The notes under the pieces are model-generated. The model saw only the letters and a list, made by a program, of their open reading frames with translations, did not search any database and had not been told where the DNA came from. The translations under genes were made by a program, and so were the position numbers. Positions 1,733 to 18,336 of a DNA stretch of 64,000 bases are shown here, in pieces. Position 1 is the first letter of the stretch. Every line of letters begins with the position of its first letter. Origin of the DNA: Thermomicrobiales bacterium (GTDB taxonomy: Bacteria > Chloroflexota > Chloroflexia > Thermomicrobiales > UBA6265); assembly GCA_023957015.1 (NCBI GenBank), contig JAMLHR010000002.1:1-64000 (forward strand). Direction: 5' to 3'.

Positions 1733-3532
1733 CTATGATCTTGGCTCAACCAGATCGAGGCTCTTCGTCTCGATCACTGGTTTGATCAATGCCTCGAAGG
1801 CATCGACCGTCATTGCGCCAAGATCGTCGCCCGAGCGCAGTCGGACGGCGACGCTATCGGCCTCGGCCTCGCGTGCACCGATAACGAGCATGTACGGGAT
1901 CTTCTGCAACTGCGCCTGGCGAATCTTCGCCTGCATGCGGCCGCTTCCGCTGCTCAGTTCCGCGCGAATACCAGCATCCTTGAGTCGCTGCTCAACCTGC
2001 CTGGCGAATTCGACCTGATCGTCCGTAATCGGAATGATGCTGGCCTGAATCGGTGCCAGCCAGGCCGGAAATGCACCCGCGTAGTGCTCGATCAGACCAC
2101 CGACGAAGCGCTCCATCGAACCCAGCAGCGTGCGGTGAATCATCGCGGCTCGGTGCCTGCCACCATCTTCCGCCACGAAGTTCACATCGAAACGTTCCGG
2201 CAGGTTGAAGTCCACCTGAATCGTCGGCCCCGTCCAAGCGCGACCAAGTGCATCCAGCCACTTGATATCGATCTTGGGACCGTAGAACGCACCTTCGCCG
2301 GGATCGAGCTTGTACTTCATGCCGCGGCTCTCGAGTGCCTGACGCAGCGTTTCCGTGGCTTCGTTCCAGATATCGTCAGCGCCGATCGCCTTCTCCGGCT
2401 TCGTGCACAGATAGACTTCCAGACCGTAGCCAAAGATATCGGCCATGTGCAGCGCCAGATCGATGACGCCACCGACCTCTTCCGCCACCTGTTCGTGCGT
2501 GCAGAAGATATGGCTGTCGTCCTGCGTGAAGCCGCGAACGCGCAACATACCGTGCAGCGTGCCGGATCGCTCGAAACGATAGACCGTACCGAGCTCTGCC
2601 AGGCGAATCGGCAGTTCACGGTAGCTGTGGATGCTGTTGTTATAGATGGCAATATGACCCGGGCAGTTCATCGGCTTGAGATAGTAATCTACCTCCTCAA
2701 TGCTCATCGGGCTGTACATATTTTCGCCGTACGTTTCGAGGTGACCGCTTGTCTTATAGATCTTCTCGCTGGCGATATGCGGCGTGTAAACCAGATCGTA
2801 GCCGCGCCTGAGCTGCTCCTGCTGTTCAAACTGCTCGATCAGGTAGCGCACCATCGCACCCTTTGGATGCCAGAGGATGAGTCCAGGACCGATCTCCTCG
2901 TTCACCGAGAAGAGATCAAGCTCCTTACCCAGCTTGCGGTGATCGCGCTTGGCGGCTTCCTCCAGCTTCGTCAGATAGGCGTCCAACTCGTCCTTCGTGT
3001 TCCAGGCCGTACCGTAGATACGCTGCAGCATCGGTCGATTCTCGTCGCCGCGCCAGTAGGCGCCGGCCACCGATTGCAGTTTGAAGGCACCGACTTCCTT
3101 CGTGCTCTCCACGTGCGGACCGCGGCAGAGATCGAGGAAATCACCCTGTTGATACGTCGTGATCACTTCGCCTTCCGGGAAGTTGGCGATCAGTTCCAGC
3201 TTGTAGGGATTGTGCTTGAAGATCTCCATCGCTTCCTCGCGGGAGACTTCCTTGCGCTCAAATACCTCGGCTTTGTTCTTATGCTTGATCATCCGCTTCT
3301 CGATCTCCTTGAGATCGTCCGGTGTGAGCGGACGAGGGAGATCAAAGTCGTAATAGAACCCGTTGTCGATAGCCGGTCCGATACCGAACTTCGCCTCCGG
3401 GAAAACTTCTTGCACGGCTTCTGCCATGAGGTGTGCGGCCGAGTGGCGCATGCGCGCCAGCTCGTACGCGGCGCGATCCTCGGGATCGACCGCGATATCC
3501 ATATGTTGTACGTCTTGCTCTTGGGCAACCAT
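1733..3532 (-). CDS. thrS: Threonyl-tRNA synthetase without TGS domain
   Basis: This class II synthetase charges tRNA-Thr. At 599 residues it begins almost directly in the editing-associated N2 domain (HSAAHLMAEAV, HxxxH, about residue 30). It therefore lacks the roughly 60-residue TGS domain usual in ThrS. The catalytic core shows motif 2 (FERSGTLHGMLRVRGFTQDD), the zinc-binding Cys in KPMNCPGHI, and motif 3 around LLGSMERFVGGLIEHYAG. An anticodon-binding domain follows. The ATG at 3530-3532 is preferred over an upstream in-frame start at 3592, because AAGGAG lies just before it and the upstream stretch belongs to the T-box leader terminator. Expression is probably controlled by tRNA-Thr charging. 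Confidence 0.95.
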   Translation of the reverse strand: MVAQEQDVQHMDIAVDPEDRAAYELARMRHSAAHLMAEAVQEVFPEAKFGIGPAIDNGFYYDFDLPRPLTPDDLKEIEKRMIKHKNKAEVFERKEVSREEAMEIFKHNPYKLELIANFPEGEVITTYQQGDFLDLCRGPHVESTKEVGAFKLQSVAGAYWRGDENRPMLQRIYGTAWNTKDELDAYLTKLEEAAKRDHRKLGKELDLFSVNEEIGPGLILWHPKGAMVRYLIEQFEQQEQLRRGYDLVYTPHIASEKIYKTSGHLETYGENMYSPMSIEEVDYYLKPMNCPGHIAIYNNSIHSYRELPIRLAELGTVYRFERSGTLHGMLRVRGFTQDDSHIFCTHEQVAEEVGGVIDLALHMADIFGYGLEVYLCTKPEKAIGADDIWNEATETLRQALESRGMKYKLDPGEGAFYGPKIDIKWLDALGRAWTGPTIQVDFNLPERFDVNFVAEDGGRHRAAMIHRTLLGSMERFVGGLIEHYAGAFPAWLAPIQASIIPITDDQVEFARQVEQRLKDAGIRAELSSGSGRMQAKIRQAQLQKIPYMLVIGAREAEADSVAVRLRSGDDLGAMTVDAFEALIKPVIETKSLDLVEPRS

Positions 3533-6714: not shown

Positions 6715-7191
6715 TCAGGCGATTTCCCTGGCACACGCGATCAGTTCATCGACCGTCGTCACAACCCGACCACCGCTGGCCTTGATGAAATACTCCACCT
6801 GCAGGGTCACGATTGAGCCAAGGTTATCGCCCGCCAGGCGAAAGTCGGTGCGAATGCCATAGACGCGCTTGCCGTTGGCGAAGGCATAGCCAACTTCTGC
6901 GGCGGTGCCGGAGTCGACATCGACGCCATCAAGAATTGCCATGACGGCGTCGCTTCGATCGATCATCTCGGTATTGCTGCGGCCGATCTCGAAGTTGATC
7001 GCTTGGAGTTTGGTAACGCGTTCGGCGTAAGAGTCGATCTCGCCGCAGGCGACGATCGCTTTGCTGAACTCGGTCTTGGCCCATGGGTTCTCGATCTCCA
7101 CGATCTCGGACAGGATGGTGACCAGTTCGTCCATGAAACCCATCGTCGATGCCGCGAATCCCAGGGGTGATGCCAGATAGACGCGTGTCAT
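6715..7191 (-). CDS. Nucleoside 2-deoxyribosyltransferase family protein
   Basis: Enzymes of this family exchange the base of 2'-deoxynucleosides or hydrolyse deoxynucleoside monophosphates. The 158-residue protein opens with VYLASPLGF, the family's substrate-binding strand. It contains AILDGVDVDSGTAAEVGYA, in which the Glu of AAEVG corresponds to the catalytic nucleophile. GKRVYGIRTDFR follows. GGAG five bases before ATG supports the start. It is transcribed away from a small membrane protein gene with only 27 bases between their start codons. Confidence 0.85.
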   Translation of the reverse strand: MTRVYLASPLGFAASTMGFMDELVTILSEIVEIENPWAKTEFSKAIVACGEIDSYAERVTKLQAINFEIGRSNTEMIDRSDAVMAILDGVDVDSGTAAEVGYAFANGKRVYGIRTDFRLAGDNLGSIVTLQVEYFIKASGGRVVTTVDELIACAREIA

Positions 7192-10955: not shown

Positions 10956-12236
10956 ATGAAGCCCGCCTCTGGTGAACTCAAGCATTCCAGGCAGCGCCAA
11001 CATCAGTGGTATGTTGTCCGCTCGCTGATCCTCTGCGTAGTCCTTTTGATCGGTGGATTTGCTGCCGACATCGCCACGCAGCGATTACGGGAGCTATCCA
11101 GCAGTGACGCTGTCTTTGCTGATTTGGATGCCGTGTACGGTGTGATCGAGGACAACTACTACTATCTTCCCACCGATGAGTCCGGTCGCGCCGAGATGGA
11201 TGCCGAGATGGAGAGCGGAGCGATCAGCGGGGCGCTCTCAACGCTGGACGATGAGTACACCCGCTACCTTGATGTCGATGAATCCAAGACCGCTACGGAG
11301 GGGCTGGAAGGCAAGTACGGTGGTATCGGCGTCGATATCTTCCTGGATGGCGACGTCGCTTTCGTTAGCGCGGTTGTCCCGGAATCTCCTGCGGATCGAG
11401 CCGGTGTATTGCGTGGAGATGTGATTGAGCAGATCAACGGCGCCCGCGTGCAAACCTCCGATACCAATGATGTGGTGCGTCAACTTCGTGGCGAAGTCGG
11501 GGAGTCGGTAAGCGTCACTATTGTTCGCCCGCTTACCGGTGAAGTGGAGACGCTGGAACTGACCTTCGAGGAGATCGTTGTCCCGCCGGTGACATTGACG
11601 TTCATTGAAGGGACGTCCTACGCCTGGCTGAGGATAACCTTGTTTGGCGATGCCACGGTGCCGAATCTCGATGATGCCATCGCCGAGATTCGCGCCCAGG
11701 GTGCCACCGGTATCATCCTCGATCTGCGTGGTAACGGCGGTGGCTGGGTAGAGGCCGCCAGACAGACACTGGGGCGGTTTCTGGATCCATCACTGGGACC
11801 AGCGATGTACGAGGACACCACACCTGGTGAAGGCGGTCTGATCGATTTACCGATTCTGGGTCCAACGGACGTCGCTCCGATCGATCTGCCAATGGTTGTG
11901 CTTATCGATGGCGGCACCGCCAGTGCCGCCGAGATTGTGGCTGGTGCGTTGAAAGACTACGGTCGGGCAACGCTGATCGGCGAGAACACGTATGGCAAGG
12001 GATCCGTCCAACGCATCTTTGAATTCTCCGATGGCTCTACCATGCGGGTGACCGTGGCGGAGTGGTTTACACCCAGCCGCGCTCGCATTCAGAGCGAAGG
12101 TGTTCGCCCCGATGTCGAGGTGGCCACCGCGACCGAAGCATCGAGTTCCGATCCTGTATTGGATACTGCCATCCTTCTGCTTGATCGCATGACCGCCGAA
12201 ACTGCGACGCCCGTGGCTTCCCCGGCGTCGGCATAA
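10956..12236 (+). CDS. Carboxy-terminal processing protease, S41 family
   Basis: This 426-residue membrane-anchored serine protease has an N-terminal transmembrane helix (RSLILCVVLLIGGFAADIA, about 23-41). A PDZ domain is centred on EGKYGGIGVDIFLDGDVAF through RAGVLRGDVIEQING. A tail-specific protease domain follows, with the nucleophile Ser in IDGGTASAAEIVAGAL and the general-base Lys in YGKGSVQRIF. Such proteases degrade or process proteins outside the cytoplasm from their C-termini. The last residues are Thr/Pro/Ala-rich. The gene ends ten bases before the TTAACA repeat array. It is not obviously part of the phosphate operon. Confidence 0.92.
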   Translation: MKPASGELKHSRQRQHQWYVVRSLILCVVLLIGGFAADIATQRLRELSSSDAVFADLDAVYGVIEDNYYYLPTDESGRAEMDAEMESGAISGALSTLDDEYTRYLDVDESKTATEGLEGKYGGIGVDIFLDGDVAFVSAVVPESPADRAGVLRGDVIEQINGARVQTSDTNDVVRQLRGEVGESVSVTIVRPLTGEVETLELTFEEIVVPPVTLTFIEGTSYAWLRITLFGDATVPNLDDAIAEIRAQGATGIILDLRGNGGGWVEAARQTLGRFLDPSLGPAMYEDTTPGEGGLIDLPILGPTDVAPIDLPMVVLIDGGTASAAEIVAGALKDYGRATLIGENTYGKGSVQRIFEFSDGSTMRVTVAEWFTPSRARIQSEGVRPDVEVATATEASSSDPVLDTAILLLDRMTAETATPVASPASA

Positions 12237-12246
12237 GCGGGCTTCG

Positions 12247-12296
12247 TTAACAGAATCACCCTCCGTATTTAACACGGCCCTTACGGTCGATTAACA
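12247..12296 (+). promoter_or_regulatory. PHO-box-like operator: three TTAACA repeats at 22-bp spacing
   Basis: TTAACA occurs at 12247, 12269 and 12291, exactly 22 bp apart, with a weaker CTTACG at the intermediate 11-bp position 12280. PhoP/PhoB-family regulators bind direct repeats with an 11-bp period, and TTAACA fits the known Bacillus PhoP consensus TT(A/T/C)A(C/T)A. A -10-like TATTCT (12306-12311) lies nine bases after the last repeat, as in promoters where the box replaces the -35. The site precedes the regulator and pst genes. Confidence 0.65.
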
Positions 12297-12371
12297 CTCG
12301 CCTTCTATTCTCCGACTGTACGTGAGAGAAGCGACACGCGTCGCGATCGTCACGAAGCGGAGGACGACTCG

Positions 12372-13151
12372 TTGGTCAAGCGACAGATCTCAAGCGAACA
12401 ACCACTCATCTTGCTGGTCGAAGATGATCCGACGTTGCGAAGCACGTTGGTGTTCAACCTTACCCGCGAGGGATATCGGGTGATTGCCGCCGAGGATGGT
12501 TTGATCGGTCTTGCGGCCGCCATGGAGCATGGTCACGATCTGAGTCTGATTGTTCTGGATGTGATGTTGCCGGGAATGAATGGATTTCAGGTACTTCGTC
12601 AGGTTCGCCAATCACTCAACGTACCCGTGCTGATGCTCTCGGCTCGAGGTGAAGAGCGAGATCGAATCGATGGGTTTGAACTGGGTGCCGATGATTATGT
12701 CGTCAAGCCGTTTGCGCTGCGGGAACTTCTCGCACGTATCAGATCGCATGTACGACGCCACGTGAACCCGGCGGTGAAACCACCATCGATGCTTCAGCGA
12801 GGTCCGTTACGAGTTGAGATCGATCGCCGCTCGGTGTCCGTTGATGGCGAGGAACTGCATTTGCGACCGAAGGAGTTCGGGTTGCTGGCAACAATCGCCA
12901 TGGAACCAGGGCGCGTCTTTAGCCGAGATGAGTTGCTGGAGACCGTCTGGGGTACTGACGTGGTAGTCGATGCTCGGACGGTGGACGTCCATATCAGTTG
13001 GCTGCGAGCGAAGTTAGTGGCCGTCGGCATGTCGGCCGAGGTGATCCGAACGGTTTACGGAACCGGTTACCTATTCCATGACTTCGGTGAAACCGGATCG
13101 ATTGCCAGCCTCACAGACGCGCAGCTTTCGCGTACAGGTTACCCGGGGTGA
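12372..13151 (+). CDS. OmpR/PhoB-type response regulator of the phosphate operon
   Basis: This 259-residue two-domain regulator has a receiver domain with acidic pair VEDDPT, phospho-acceptor Asp in IVLDVMLPG, the Ser switch in LMLSARGEE and the Lys in DYVVKPF. A winged-helix DNA-binding domain follows (ELHLRPKEFGLLATIA, then YGTGYLF). TTG at 12372 is the start, supported by GGAGG eight bases upstream. Its place before pstSCAB-phoU marks it as the PhoP/PhoB/RegX3 counterpart. No PhoR-like histidine kinase is adjacent. It probably binds the TTAACA array in front of its own gene. Confidence 0.9.
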   Translation: MVKRQISSEQPLILLVEDDPTLRSTLVFNLTREGYRVIAAEDGLIGLAAAMEHGHDLSLIVLDVMLPGMNGFQVLRQVRQSLNVPVLMLSARGEERDRIDGFELGADDYVVKPFALRELLARIRSHVRRHVNPAVKPPSMLQRGPLRVEIDRRSVSVDGEELHLRPKEFGLLATIAMEPGRVFSRDELLETVWGTDVVVDARTVDVHISWLRAKLVAVGMSAEVIRTVYGTGYLFHDFGETGSIASLTDAQLSRTGYPG

Positions 13152-13154
13152 ACG

Positions 13155-13240: not shown

Positions 13241-14281
13241 ATGGAGTTACTGAACATTCGCCTCAATCGCCGTTCTCTGGCCGCTATTACTGCTGGGACC
13301 ATCGCTGTTGCGCCGTTCGCGCGCGTTTTTGCTCAGGAAGAGAATGTCATCACCTATGAGCCGGGTGATGGTGTCTCCGATCTCTCGGGCGCTTTCGAAG
13401 CCGATGGTTCTTCGACGCTCGGTCCCCTGACCGAGGCAGCGATCGAGGAGTTCGCCGCCATAGCTCCGAATGTCCGCATCACCAATGGTATCTCTGGTAC
13501 CGGTGGCGGATTCGAGCGTTTCTCCAAGGGTGAGACTGCGATCTCGAATGCGTCGCGACCAATCAAGGATTCCGAAGCTGAGGCCTGTGCCGCTGCCGGT
13601 ATCTCCTGGTTCAAGTTCGATATGGCATACGACGGTATTACCGTGGTCGTTTCCTCCGAAAACGACTTTGTCAGTGATCTCACAGTAGAGGAACTCGGTA
13701 ACATCTGGGCCGCAGATGGTGGTGTCACCACCTGGGCGGATGTTCGAGCCGAGTGGCCAGCCGAGAATATCGAACTCTATGGCCCCGGCACCGCTTCCGG
13801 CACATTCGATTACTTCAACGAAGCCATTCTGGGCGAGCGAGAGGTTCGCACCGACTACACCCCAAGCGAGGATGACAACGTTCTGGTGCAGGGTGTTGCG
13901 GGCAGCAAGAATGCCCTTGGCTACTTCGGCTTCTCCTATTACGAGGAGAACCAGGACGTGCTGAAGGCTGTTGCCATCGACAATGGCGAGGGTGCCGTTG
14001 CTCCTTCCATCGAATCGATTTCCGATGGCAGCTACGCACCACTCGGTCGCACGCTGTATGTCTACGTCAATGCCGAAGAACTGCAGAGCCGCCCCGAAGT
14101 TGCGGAGTTCGTGGAGTTCTACGCCGCCACTGCTGACGAGATCGCCCCATCAGTTGGATATATCGCTCTGCACGCTGAGGCGCAGCAGGAAACCTACGAT
14201 CACGTGCTTGGTGCCATTGATGGTTCCATCGCTCCTGACTCGGATTCCTTCGGACAGGAAGACGCGACACCAGCCGCGTAG
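13241..14281 (+). CDS. pstS: Phosphate ABC transporter substrate-binding protein
   Basis: PstS captures phosphate outside the membrane for PstCAB. This 346-residue protein begins with a twin-arginine-like signal (LNRRSLAAITAGTIAVAPFA, then VFAQ) and has no lipobox. The mature part has SGAFEADGSSTLGPLTEAAI, the GISGTGGGFERF loop and YGPGTASGTFDYF, all typical phosphate-binding loops of PstS. The C-terminus is Asp/Glu/Ala-rich. AAGGAG before ATG supports the start. It is the first transport gene of the operon, 89 bases after the regulator. Confidence 0.93.
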   Translation: MELLNIRLNRRSLAAITAGTIAVAPFARVFAQEENVITYEPGDGVSDLSGAFEADGSSTLGPLTEAAIEEFAAIAPNVRITNGISGTGGGFERFSKGETAISNASRPIKDSEAEACAAAGISWFKFDMAYDGITVVVSSENDFVSDLTVEELGNIWAADGGVTTWADVRAEWPAENIELYGPGTASGTFDYFNEAILGEREVRTDYTPSEDDNVLVQGVAGSKNALGYFGFSYYEENQDVLKAVAIDNGEGAVAPSIESISDGSYAPLGRTLYVYVNAEELQSRPEVAEFVEFYAATADEIAPSVGYIALHAEAQQETYDHVLGAIDGSIAPDSDSFGQEDATPAA

Positions 14282-14348: not shown

Positions 14349-15323
14349 GTGTCCAGTACTGCGACACCGCTACGGCCAGATAATCGGCCGCCGCTGAACC
14401 TTATGGGCAAGCGCGGGAGACAGCGATCAGAGGAAGTGATCCGCTACGCGCTGATCGCCTGTTCCCTGGTCACGCTGCTGACCACACTGGGAATTATCGG
14501 CATTTTACTGTTTGAAGCGGCCAACTTCTTTGCTGATATACCGGTGTGGGATTTCCTGACTGGTCGTACCTGGACACCGCTTTTTGCTGGTACGCAGCAA
14601 GAGTTCGGCGTACTGCCGATCGTCGTTGGTACCCTGATGACCTCGTTGGTTGCGGCCTGTATCGCATTACCGATCGGTTTGGCAGCCGCGATTTACCTGA
14701 GCGAGTTTGCCAACGAACGCGCGCGCTCTGTCCTCAAGCCCGTGCTTGAGGTGCTCGCGGGTGTGCCGACGATTGTCTATGGCTTCTTCGCCCTCACATT
14801 TATCACTCCGGTCATTCTCAAACCGATCTTTCCTGATATTGGCACGTTCAACGGACTGAGCGCCGGTATCGCCATCGGCATTATGGCTATGCCGACCGTG
14901 GCATCGCTCTCCGAGGATGCTTTGCGTGCCGTGCCCAGGAGCCTGCGTGAGGCAGCCTACGGCTTGGGTGCCACCAAGTTCGAGACAACCGCTCGGGTGG
15001 TCGTGCCGGCCGCAGTCTCCGGTATTGTGGCGTCGTTCATTCTGGCCGTATCGCGGGCCGTCGGCGAGACGATGATCGTGGCCGTTGCTGCGGGTCAGAG
15101 TCCGGCAGGTCAATCCGGTGCCAGTGGCAGCATGTTCGATCTCATGCATAGCATGCAAACAATGACTGGCTTCATTGCCTACACCTTTAGTAGCGATGTC
15201 GCCCGCGGTACAACCGCGTTCTACTCCCTGTTTGGCGTGGCGTTGTTGCTGTTCATCATGACCTTCGCCATGAATCTGGCAAGTCAGTGGGTAACGAAGC
15301 GCTACCGAGAGGAGTACGACTAA
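14349..15323 (+). CDS. pstC: Phosphate ABC transporter permease PstC
   Basis: This 324-residue inner-membrane protein has about six hydrophobic helices. The permease EAA-type loop reads SLREAAYGLGATKFET, the contact site for PstB. The opening helix region (ALIACSLVTLLTTLGIIGILLFEA) and VLEVLAGVPTIVYGFFAL are characteristic of PstC. It starts at GTG 14349 behind GGGAGAGGG. Its stop TAA overlaps the pstA start (taATG), so translation is probably coupled. Confidence 0.93.
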   Translation: MSSTATPLRPDNRPPLNLMGKRGRQRSEEVIRYALIACSLVTLLTTLGIIGILLFEAANFFADIPVWDFLTGRTWTPLFAGTQQEFGVLPIVVGTLMTSLVAACIALPIGLAAAIYLSEFANERARSVLKPVLEVLAGVPTIVYGFFALTFITPVILKPIFPDIGTFNGLSAGIAIGIMAMPTVASLSEDALRAVPRSLREAAYGLGATKFETTARVVVPAAVSGIVASFILAVSRAVGETMIVAVAAGQSPAGQSGASGSMFDLMHSMQTMTGFIAYTFSSDVARGTTAFYSLFGVALLLFIMTFAMNLASQWVTKRYREEYD

Positions 15324-16231
15324 TGTCTTCGGAACTAATTTCGAGTGCCTCTCAGATATCGAAGGCTGAGTACCAACCGCGGGTGAGTGCTCGGCAGACC
15401 ATCGGCAGGATTTGGCGTTGGGTCTTCTTTGGCTCAACTGCATTGGCTATCGTCCTGCTGGGCATGTTGCTGTGGTCGGTTATTGGTCCCGGTTGGAACT
15501 GGTTGAGCTGGGGATTAATCACCAATCCGCCCTCGCGATTCCCCGAGAAAGCAGGTATGAATCCTGCCATCTGGGGTTCCATCTGGATCGTGCTTGGCTC
15601 CGGTGTGGCCGCGTTCATCATGGGACTCGGCACCGCTATTTACCTCGAGGAGTATGCCGAGAAGGGGCGATTCAACGACTTCATTCAGACGAACATCTCG
15701 AATCTCGCTGGTGTGCCCTCGATCGTGTATGGCCTGCTTGGGTTGGTCGTCTTCGTGGATCTTATGCATATGGGGCGCACGCTGATAGCTGGCGTCCTGA
15801 CGATGGCGCTGCTGATACTGCCGGTGGTTGTTATCTCCTCTCGCGAGGCGATTCGAGCGGTACCACCCAGCCTCCGTGAGGCCAGTTACGGTCTGGGTGC
15901 CACCAAATGGCAGACCGTTTGGAACCACGTACTCCCATCCGCGTTCCCGGGCATTCTCACCGGTATCATCCTGGCCATGAGTCGCGCCATCGGTGAAACC
16001 GCACCGCTTCTCGTTGTTGGTGGTGCCAGTCAGGTACTGTGGCGACCGGACGGTCCATTCTCCACATTCATGGTCATGCCACTTCAGATCTACAACTGGA
16101 CGGGACGCCCGCATGAAGAGTTTGAGCACCTCGCCGCGGCCGCGATCATCGTCCTTATGATCATCTTGCTCCTCATGAACTCAGTCGCAATCGGACTTCG
16201 CCAACACTTCAGCAGAAAGGCCAGATGGTAA
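15323..16231 (+). CDS. pstA: Phosphate ABC transporter permease PstA
   Basis: This 302-residue permease pairs with PstC. It carries NLAGVPSIVYGLLGLVVF, the EAA loop SLREASYGLGATKWQT, and the PstA-type SRAIGETAPLLVVGG segment. Start ATG at 15323 shares one base with the pstC stop. An in-frame start 36 bases upstream lies inside pstC and is rejected. The gene is followed after three bases by the first possible pstB start. Confidence 0.92.
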   Translation: MSSELISSASQISKAEYQPRVSARQTIGRIWRWVFFGSTALAIVLLGMLLWSVIGPGWNWLSWGLITNPPSRFPEKAGMNPAIWGSIWIVLGSGVAAFIMGLGTAIYLEEYAEKGRFNDFIQTNISNLAGVPSIVYGLLGLVVFVDLMHMGRTLIAGVLTMALLILPVVVISSREAIRAVPPSLREASYGLGATKWQTVWNHVLPSAFPGILTGIILAMSRAIGETAPLLVVGGASQVLWRPDGPFSTFMVMPLQIYNWTGRPHEEFEHLAAAAIIVLMIILLLMNSVAIGLRQHFSRKARW

Positions 16232-16234
16232 CCC

Positions 16235-17134
16235 ATGTCAGCAACACTCCCACGTTCCGACAAAAGGCAAGGTGGTTCGATGCAACTAGAGTCCAGCCAG
16301 GAAGCTGTCGCCCGGATTCCCGGAATCAGCGCCGCCGCGTTCCAGAGCGTCGAGAAGGAGCTGGATACCTCTCCTTCACTGATCGAATTGAGGAACCTGA
16401 ACATTCATTACGGTTCATTCCACGCCGTGAATGATGTCAATCTCTCGATCAAGCAGAACTCCATCACGGCCTTCATTGGTCCTTCTGGCTGCGGCAAATC
16501 CACCGTCCTGCGCTGCATCAACCGCATGAACGATCTCATTCCGTCCGCTCGGGTGGACGGTGAGATTCTCTATCATGGTCAGGATGTGAATGCGCGCAAT
16601 GTCGATCCGGTTGAGGTGCGCCGTCGTATCGGTATGGTTTTTCAGCGTCCGAATCCGTTTCCCAAGAGTATCTATGAGAATGTGGCCTGGGGAGCCCGCA
16701 TCAATGGCTACAAGGGCAATTACGATGAACTGGTGGAAGCATCGCTGGTTCGTGCCGCTCTGTGGGATGAAGTGAAGGATAAGTTGAAGGATAGCGGTCT
16801 CAGTCTCTCGGGTGGACAGCAGCAACGCCTGTGTATCGCCCGTGCTCTGGCCACCAATCCGGATGTGATTCTGCTCGACGAACCTGCCTCGGCGCTCGAC
16901 CCTATCTCCACGCTCAAGATCGAGGAGTTGCTGCGCGAGTTGGAGTCCGACTACACGATCGTGATCGTCACGCACAACATGCAGCAAGCCGCCCGCGTGA
17001 GTGATCGCACCGTCTTCTTCTCTCTCAACGAGAATCGCCAGGGCATATTGGTGGAGAGTGGGCCTACCCAGAAGATGTTCACCAATCCAGAGGATCCCCG
17101 GACAGAGGGGTACATTTCCGGCCGATTCGGATAG
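16235..17134 (+). CDS. pstB: Phosphate ABC transporter ATPase PstB
   Basis: This ATPase powers phosphate uptake. It has Walker [20 protein letters not shown], the Q-loop in [18 protein letters not shown], signature [16 protein letters not shown], Walker [14 protein letters not shown] and the H-loop VTHNMQQA. At 299 residues it is longer than the usual 250-270 because of an N-terminal extension of about 45 residues before [12 protein letters not shown]. An internal ATG at 16280 behind AAGGTGG would remove 15 of these residues and has the better ribosome-binding site, so the true start may be there. Confidence 0.93.
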
Positions 17135-17155: not shown

Positions 17156-17899
17156 ATGCAGCAGGATATGAGGACGGATATGTCGGCCAGAGCGGCGTTC
17201 GATCATCAGTTACAGGAACTCAATGACCAGGTCGTGACGATGGCCAGTATGGTCGACAAGGCGATTGCGCGCGCTCTTGAGTCGCTTCGATTGCAGAATG
17301 TCGCCTTGGCGGATGAGGTGCAGCGTAGCGATAACGCGATCAACCGCCTCCATCGCAATGGCGAGGAGCGCGCGATCACGATGATCGCCCTGCAAGGACC
17401 TGTGAGTTCGGATTTGCGACGTATTGCCAGCGCGATCAGCATCTTCTCCAACCTGGAGCGTATGGGCGATTACGCGGCGGGTATTGCTCGTATCGTCGTT
17501 GAAGGATCGCGAGAGTCATTGCTCAAGCCGTTGGCGGATATCCCGCAAATGGGTGTGATTGCCCGCGAAATGTTGGATGAAGCCATCCAGGCCTATGTCG
17601 ATAAAGATGTTGAGGCTGCTCGCACCGTCGCGGAACGAGACGATGAGTTGGATGTGCTCTATGACACTATCGTGACTGAGCTGATGGACTACATGGTCAA
17701 CGATCCCTCGACGATCGAGCGCGCCACCCACCTTCTCTGGATCGCCCACAATCTCGAGCGCATCGGAGATCGCGTCACCAACATCTGTGAACGTGTGGTC
17801 TATATCGTGACGGGCGAGTACGAGGAGTTGGATGGTGGACGAATCGCCCCTCAGCGATTTGGTCGCGTCGGATCGTCCGAAAGCGGCATGGTCGGATAA
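17156..17899 (+). CDS. phoU: Phosphate transport regulator PhoU
   Basis: PhoU is a cytoplasmic three-helix-repeat protein that restrains Pho signalling and Pst uptake when phosphate is plentiful. The 247-residue protein shows both PhoU repeats, with acidic metal-binding motifs such as DLRRIASAISIFSNLERMGDYA (residues roughly 80-103) and a second copy near ATHLLWIAHNLERIGDRVTN. It is last in the pst operon. Its 3' end overlaps the convergent receiver gene by 49 bases. Confidence 0.93.
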   Translation: MQQDMRTDMSARAAFDHQLQELNDQVVTMASMVDKAIARALESLRLQNVALADEVQRSDNAINRLHRNGEERAITMIALQGPVSSDLRRIASAISIFSNLERMGDYAAGIARIVVEGSRESLLKPLADIPQMGVIAREMLDEAIQAYVDKDVEAARTVAERDDELDVLYDTIVTELMDYMVNDPSTIERATHLLWIAHNLERIGDRVTNICERVVYIVTGEYEELDGGRIAPQRFGRVGSSESGMVG

Positions 17900-18336
17900 G
17901 CTTCGCGCCATTCCTCGAATACCGCATGCAACTCGGGCACGAGATCTTCGAGATCGATGGGGGCGTGAAGCATACGGCTGATGCCCATCGTTTGCATGGA
18001 CTCATCTGATAGTTCCACGGGATCAACTGAAATCACTACCACAGGCGCCGTTGTCCGCGGCGCCTGTTCGCGTATCCGGCTGGATGCTCCTCGAAGTCTC
18101 AGCATCAACTCTTCTGCGCCAAAGCTCCGGAGACCGTAATCCACGATGATCAGATCGAACTGACGTAGCCGGAACACTTCCAGCACCTGGAGTCCGCTCG
18201 AGATCACCGTTGTCCAGAATCCACCCAGCGGCAGACCCTCATTGAGGAATGTTGCGAGATCAGGATCGTCGGTAACGATGAGGACATGGGGGCGTTCGCT
18301 GTGTTTCCGGGCCTTCAGGAGGGGTCTGTCGATCAC
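17851..18336 (-). CDS. Stand-alone receiver-domain protein lacking the conserved Lys
   Basis: This 161-residue protein is a single CheY-like receiver with no output domain. It has the acidic pair (VLIVTDDPDLATF), a candidate phospho-acceptor Asp (LIIVDYGL) and a hydrophobic strand with Ser (VVVISVDPVEL). The Lys-Pro signature that should follow reads HAPIDLEDL, so the conserved Lys is His. GTG at 18334-18336 overlaps the stop of the M14 peptidase gene by four bases (GTGA), so it is translated from that message. It runs convergently into phoU for 49 bases. Confidence 0.7.
   Translation of the reverse strand: MIDRPLLKARKHSERPHVLIVTDDPDLATFLNEGLPLGGFWTTVISSGLQVLEVFRLRQFDLIIVDYGLRSFGAEELMLRLRGASSRIREQAPRTTAPVVVISVDPVELSDESMQTMGISRMLHAPIDLEDLVPELHAVFEEWREAYPTMPLSDDPTRPNR

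Follow-up and report, generated by a model that had tools for sequence, protein, structure and literature searches.

Positions 12247-12311 of the window (the whole 64-kb stretch of DNA that was analysed) very probably constitute a PHO-type operator and promoter, most likely bound by the regulator encoded immediately downstream and serving as the phosphate-starvation switch of a regulator-pstSCAB-phoU operon. The mechanism that we propose is drawn by analogy with Escherichia coli PhoB and cyanobacterial SphR (PMC4415409, PMC1906773, PMC11126600). Phosphorylated dimers of a PhoB/PhoP-type regulator would bind the 11-bp direct repeats head to tail, occupying the core at 12269-12296 and the outer copy at 12247, and the bound dimers would recruit RNA polymerase to the TATTCT -10 element, which has no -35 of its own. 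Phosphate scarcity would switch on the regulator gene together with pstSCAB-phoU, and with the adjacent regulator as the most likely binder the switch would be autoregulatory.

The repeats and the -10 element

The hexamer TTAACA has just four occurrences in the 64-kb window; read on the plus strand, the window holds no copy of its reverse complement. Three plus-strand copies start at 12247, 12269 and 12291, exactly where a preliminary description of this DNA had placed them. The 22-bp distances that it gave between these copies are right, but the true period is 11 bp. The core triple consists of TTAACA (12269-12274; family consensus ATTTAACA), CTTACG at the half step (12280-12285; consensus GCTTAC) and TTAACA (12291-12296; consensus GTTAAC). 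Upstream, the same 11-bp register passes through a degenerate copy, ACCCTC (12258-12263), to the outer TTAACA (12247-12252), 22 bp ahead of the core. A basic unit of 22 bp was ruled out because the middle CTTAC copy is conserved as well as its neighbours; CTTACG is indeed present at 12280, but what had been described as a weaker copy is a strongly conserved middle member of the triple. The unit itself also had to be redefined: TTAACA is present in the window, but the family consensus is YTWAC[A/C], not strictly TTAACA.

The pattern TTAACA-N16-TTAACA gave two overlapping matches in the window against 0.00 expected (100 shuffles), and a genome search found no second site anywhere in the 2.84-Mb genome. 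The -10 element TATTCT (12306-12311, plus strand) follows the third core copy after nine nucleotides, precisely as described earlier. No sigma-70 promoter or -35 match was detected on the plus strand of the region, which fits an activator-dependent promoter. PHO boxes have at least two direct repeats at 11-bp spacing, here those at 12269, 12280 and 12291 plus the copy at 12247; they stand roughly 10 bp ahead of a sigma-70 -10 element, where they replace the -35. This arrangement is present at the window site.

The rest of the genome was searched for further boxes. A search allowing two mismatches returned two other matches, fewer than the reversed control, and a 50-position profile found no site besides the window box. 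A wider regulon in this genome was rejected on these grounds. A second candidate box before pstS (12.5 bits, 13125-13154 in the window) has no counterpart in 17 relatives and was treated as a chance match.

Conservation in the family and the order

Orthologs of the regulator were found in 22 of the 32 sampled genomes of the family (E<=1e-70), in the conserved gene order ctp, regulator, pstS, pstC, pstA, pstB, phoU. An ungapped motif search seeded with the window's box and applied to 20 orthologous upstream regions recovered a 50-bp module before the regulator in every one of them. The core triple reads YTWAC-N6-CTTAC-N6-TTAAC, with a TANNNT -10 box 9 nt beyond its end; the module consensus is ATTTAACA, N5, CTTAC, N6, TTAAC, then the TANNNT -10. 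The distance from the last hexamer to TANNNT is 9 nt at 16 of the 20 loci and 10 nt at three, and in one genome (G022) TANNNT is absent. Every left-one-out score, between 12.3 and 47.5 bits, was higher than that of any of 60 dinucleotide-shuffled versions of its own region. Three held-out loci, fetched after the model had been built and not part of it, all carried the box at the expected distance from the regulator, with scores of 42.1, 23.8 and 10.1 bits, the last of them weak. The comparison of related upstream regions by motif search, which the preliminary description had suggested as a check, was thereby passed at 20 of 20 loci and at the three held-out ones. The pattern is also specific for this promoter: with one mismatch allowed, box-N10-TANNNT matched 14 times across 61 genomes of the order, each time at this promoter, and its reversed control had no match in the same 61 genomes. 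Taken as an explanation of the site, a chance or non-regulatory repeat retains practically no probability; nothing was found in its support, the shuffles gave 0.00, the held-out and genome-wide tests speak against it, and the conservation data refute it.

The register of the outer copy holds TTAACA, TTTAACA, TTTACA or TTTACC in six genomes (G002, G001, G003, G009, G004, G023). The degenerate register at 12258 is not conserved in the window's genus and is occupied by a good copy in other genera. In one genus, g13 (L262, about 1386-1435), a decayed middle copy is flanked by outer copies that are arranged as an inverted repeat, TTAACAAT...ATTGTTAA.

Related arrays were found in other families of the order. 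In family f4 four to six consecutive TTAAC-type copies at 11-bp steps precede pst genes (L219, 5237-5300, plus strand; L220, about 7030-7090, minus strand), more than in the window's family. The array of genome G031 reads CTAACC, CTTCAC, GTTAAC, ATTAAC, ATTAAA, ATTTAC in 11-bp steps, followed by TACTCT, and that of G027 resembles it. Two f2 genomes have similar arrays ahead of their pst-linked regulator; in f3 such arrays are less distinct. Family f4 also has single boxes near a gene that begins with FKGNLHTHSTRSDGG (judged by eye to be PHP-type, with no Pfam match), near a phnM locus and near Ugp-like permeases. The gene content beside these boxes, which played no part in defining the motif, ties it to phosphorus. 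Phosphate-acquisition genes lie downstream of the box across relatives, as regulator-pstSCAB-phoU in the family and, in f4, as loci of the pst, phn and ugp types.

Read on the minus strand, the window site is TGTTAA-N5-CGTAAG-N5-TGTTAA. WalR boxes are likewise 11-bp direct repeats, TGTWAH-N5-TGTWAH, found at cell-wall genes, and TGTTAA fits TGTWAH. The genome moreover encodes, on contig C23 and away from the pst operon, a kinase-paired response regulator (the C23 regulator), whose best-scoring model is YycF. A WalR/YycF-type box on the opposite strand is nevertheless highly improbable, because in every case the box stands ahead of the regulator-pst operon, on its strand and with 9-10 nt between box and -10 element, and the f4 boxes precede pst and phosphonate- or glycerol-phosphate-type loci, not cell-wall genes.

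The operon and the predicted binder

The first gene of the operon encodes a PhoB/OmpR-type response regulator (12372-13151, with a TTG start after GGAGGA). It is followed on the same (plus) strand by genes for a pstS-family phosphate-binding protein (13241-14281; TIGR02136), pstC (14349-15323; TIGR02138), pstA (15287-16231; TIGR00974), pstB (16235-17134; TIGR00972) and phoU (17156-17899; TIGR02135), each above the cut-off of its model; the six genes would be co-transcribed. Upstream of the window site lies the gene of an S41 C-terminal processing protease (ctp) with PDZ and peptidase domains (10956-12236, plus strand). In nearly all family loci this gene immediately precedes the regulator-pst operon, and it is kept in genome G007 too, though the regulator gene is absent from that locus. 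At the other end, convergent with phoU, a minus-strand gene (17851-18336) encodes a weak receiver-like protein (28.5 bits, short of the Pfam cut-off) that has no DNA-binding domain and in which the conserved lysine after the acceptor aspartate seems, by eye, to be lost; this synteny is kept in much of the family.

The window regulator joins a phosphorylatable receiver (Response_reg) to a winged-helix domain (Trans_reg_C), as do the regulators of PhoBR/PhoPR pairs. Residues D18, D19, D63, S90 and K112 of the receiver are invariant in ten orthologs. The best NCBIfam regulator model is the PhoB equivalog TIGR02154, but the score of 216.4 bits falls short of the curated cut-off of 296.2, so the protein does not qualify as a PhoB equivalog, and it passes the cut-off of none of the NCBIfam regulator models listed. 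By sequence its closest relative of solved structure is RegX3. The protein had been called a PhoP-type regulator; PhoB/OmpR-type is the more exact designation. Within the family, the regulators linked to pst group into a single clade (100/99), with the pst-linked ones of f2 and f3 as its neighbours (93/90).

That the receiver keeps all the residues needed for phosphorylation makes the adjacent regulator the most likely binder of the box, and if it is the binder, autoregulation follows. The autoregulated PHO promoter proposed earlier is supported: the PHO-type box is present before the same operon at 20 of 20 loci, and the adjacent binder and the control by phosphate are what we infer in addition. 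A PhoR-type kinase gene beside the regulator, as in PhoBR/PhoPR systems, is absent, and the contig that carries the pst operon (C17) has no HisKA kinase. By analogy with the known systems, the regulator would be phosphorylated by an unlinked kinase, and the operon induced under phosphate limitation.

One genome of the family departs from this picture. In G007, which is 96% complete, the box (ATAACA, TTTACC, ATTACC, CTTACC in 11-bp steps, then TAGATT; L226, about 3090-3140, minus strand) stands directly before pstS, without a pst-linked regulator gene. If the box works there, another regulator must serve it. The PHO box might then be bound mainly by a response regulator encoded elsewhere, for example the C23 one, with the pst-linked regulator as a target or modulator. 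G007 has retained a protein related to the C23 regulator (100/98 support). The kinase of the C23 pair carries HAMP, PAS, HisKA and HATPase domains, scoring near PnpS, WalK and PhoR, and no kinase gene lies near the pst operon. We nevertheless regard this arrangement as improbable: box and regulator gene occur together in all other complete family loci examined, the C23 regulator/kinase pair is located behind heme genes, no box turned up ahead of that pair, and G000 and G007 have different recognition helices in their C23 relatives.

The phosphate response of the family might have been reduced to a single hard-wired switch. A kinase-less, pst-linked PhoB-type regulator would control essentially its own promoter only, with an unlinked kinase as its phosphoryl donor; in one relative the regulator gene would have been lost and another response regulator would have taken over the box. 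We offer this scheme tentatively, as a doubtful though conceivable one.

Comparison with known PHO systems

The Bacillus subtilis PhoP box is built of TT(A/T/C)A(C/T)A repeats, in four evenly spaced copies. The window site resembles it in the TTAACA unit and the 11-bp spacing, and differs in having three core copies plus one outer copy and no phoR next to the regulator. The recognition helix of the window regulator, VDVHISWLR, shares VDVHIS-LR with the VDVHISHLR of Salinicoccus and Exiguobacterium regulators, which we take to be PhoP.

The 11-bp architecture of PHO boxes has been reviewed (PMC4415409). The PHO box unit of E. coli PhoB is CTGTCAT (PMC4415409), and the box stands 10 bp before a TAN3T/A -10 element (PMC1906773). 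The window site shares the 11-bp direct repeats located about 10 bp before the -10 and in place of the -35, whereas the sequence of the repeat unit is different. In the recognition helix R-T-V-D-V-H-I is identical in the two regulators, but the R-R that follows VDVHI in PhoB is S-W in the window regulator, a replacement that may explain why the unit differs from the E. coli PHO box.

The box of cyanobacterial SphR (PhoB) is CTTAACCT-N3 repeated three times with an 11-bp period (PMC1906773, PMC11126600); the sphX box of PCC 6803 is TTTAACCAaacCTTTACTAgggCTTAACCT (PMC1906773), and mutation of any TTAA core of the cyanobacterial PHO box lowers binding (PMC11126600). Like it, the window site lies upstream of pst genes and has three tandem 11-bp repeats built on a TTAA/TTTAC core. 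It departs from the cyanobacterial arrangement in its middle copy (CTTAC in place of CTTAA), in having the regulator gene at the head of the pst operon, and in belonging to Chloroflexota. Mycobacterium RegX3 and Streptomyces PhoP recognize GTTCACC boxes (PMC4415409). They too are phosphate regulators acting on 11-bp repeats, and RegX3 is the closest solved relative; the box sequence differs, and no kinase gene lies beside the window regulator.

The box is of the textbook PHO switch type, in a little-studied branch of Chloroflexota for which a search of the open-access literature, which was not exhaustive, found no PHO box description. The 11-bp layout with a TTAAC core is common to this branch, cyanobacteria and Bacillus. 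The analysis provides a PHO-box consensus and promoter layout, tested across genomes, for a branch of Chloroflexota, and the consensus can serve to map phosphate regulons among its members, most of them uncultured.
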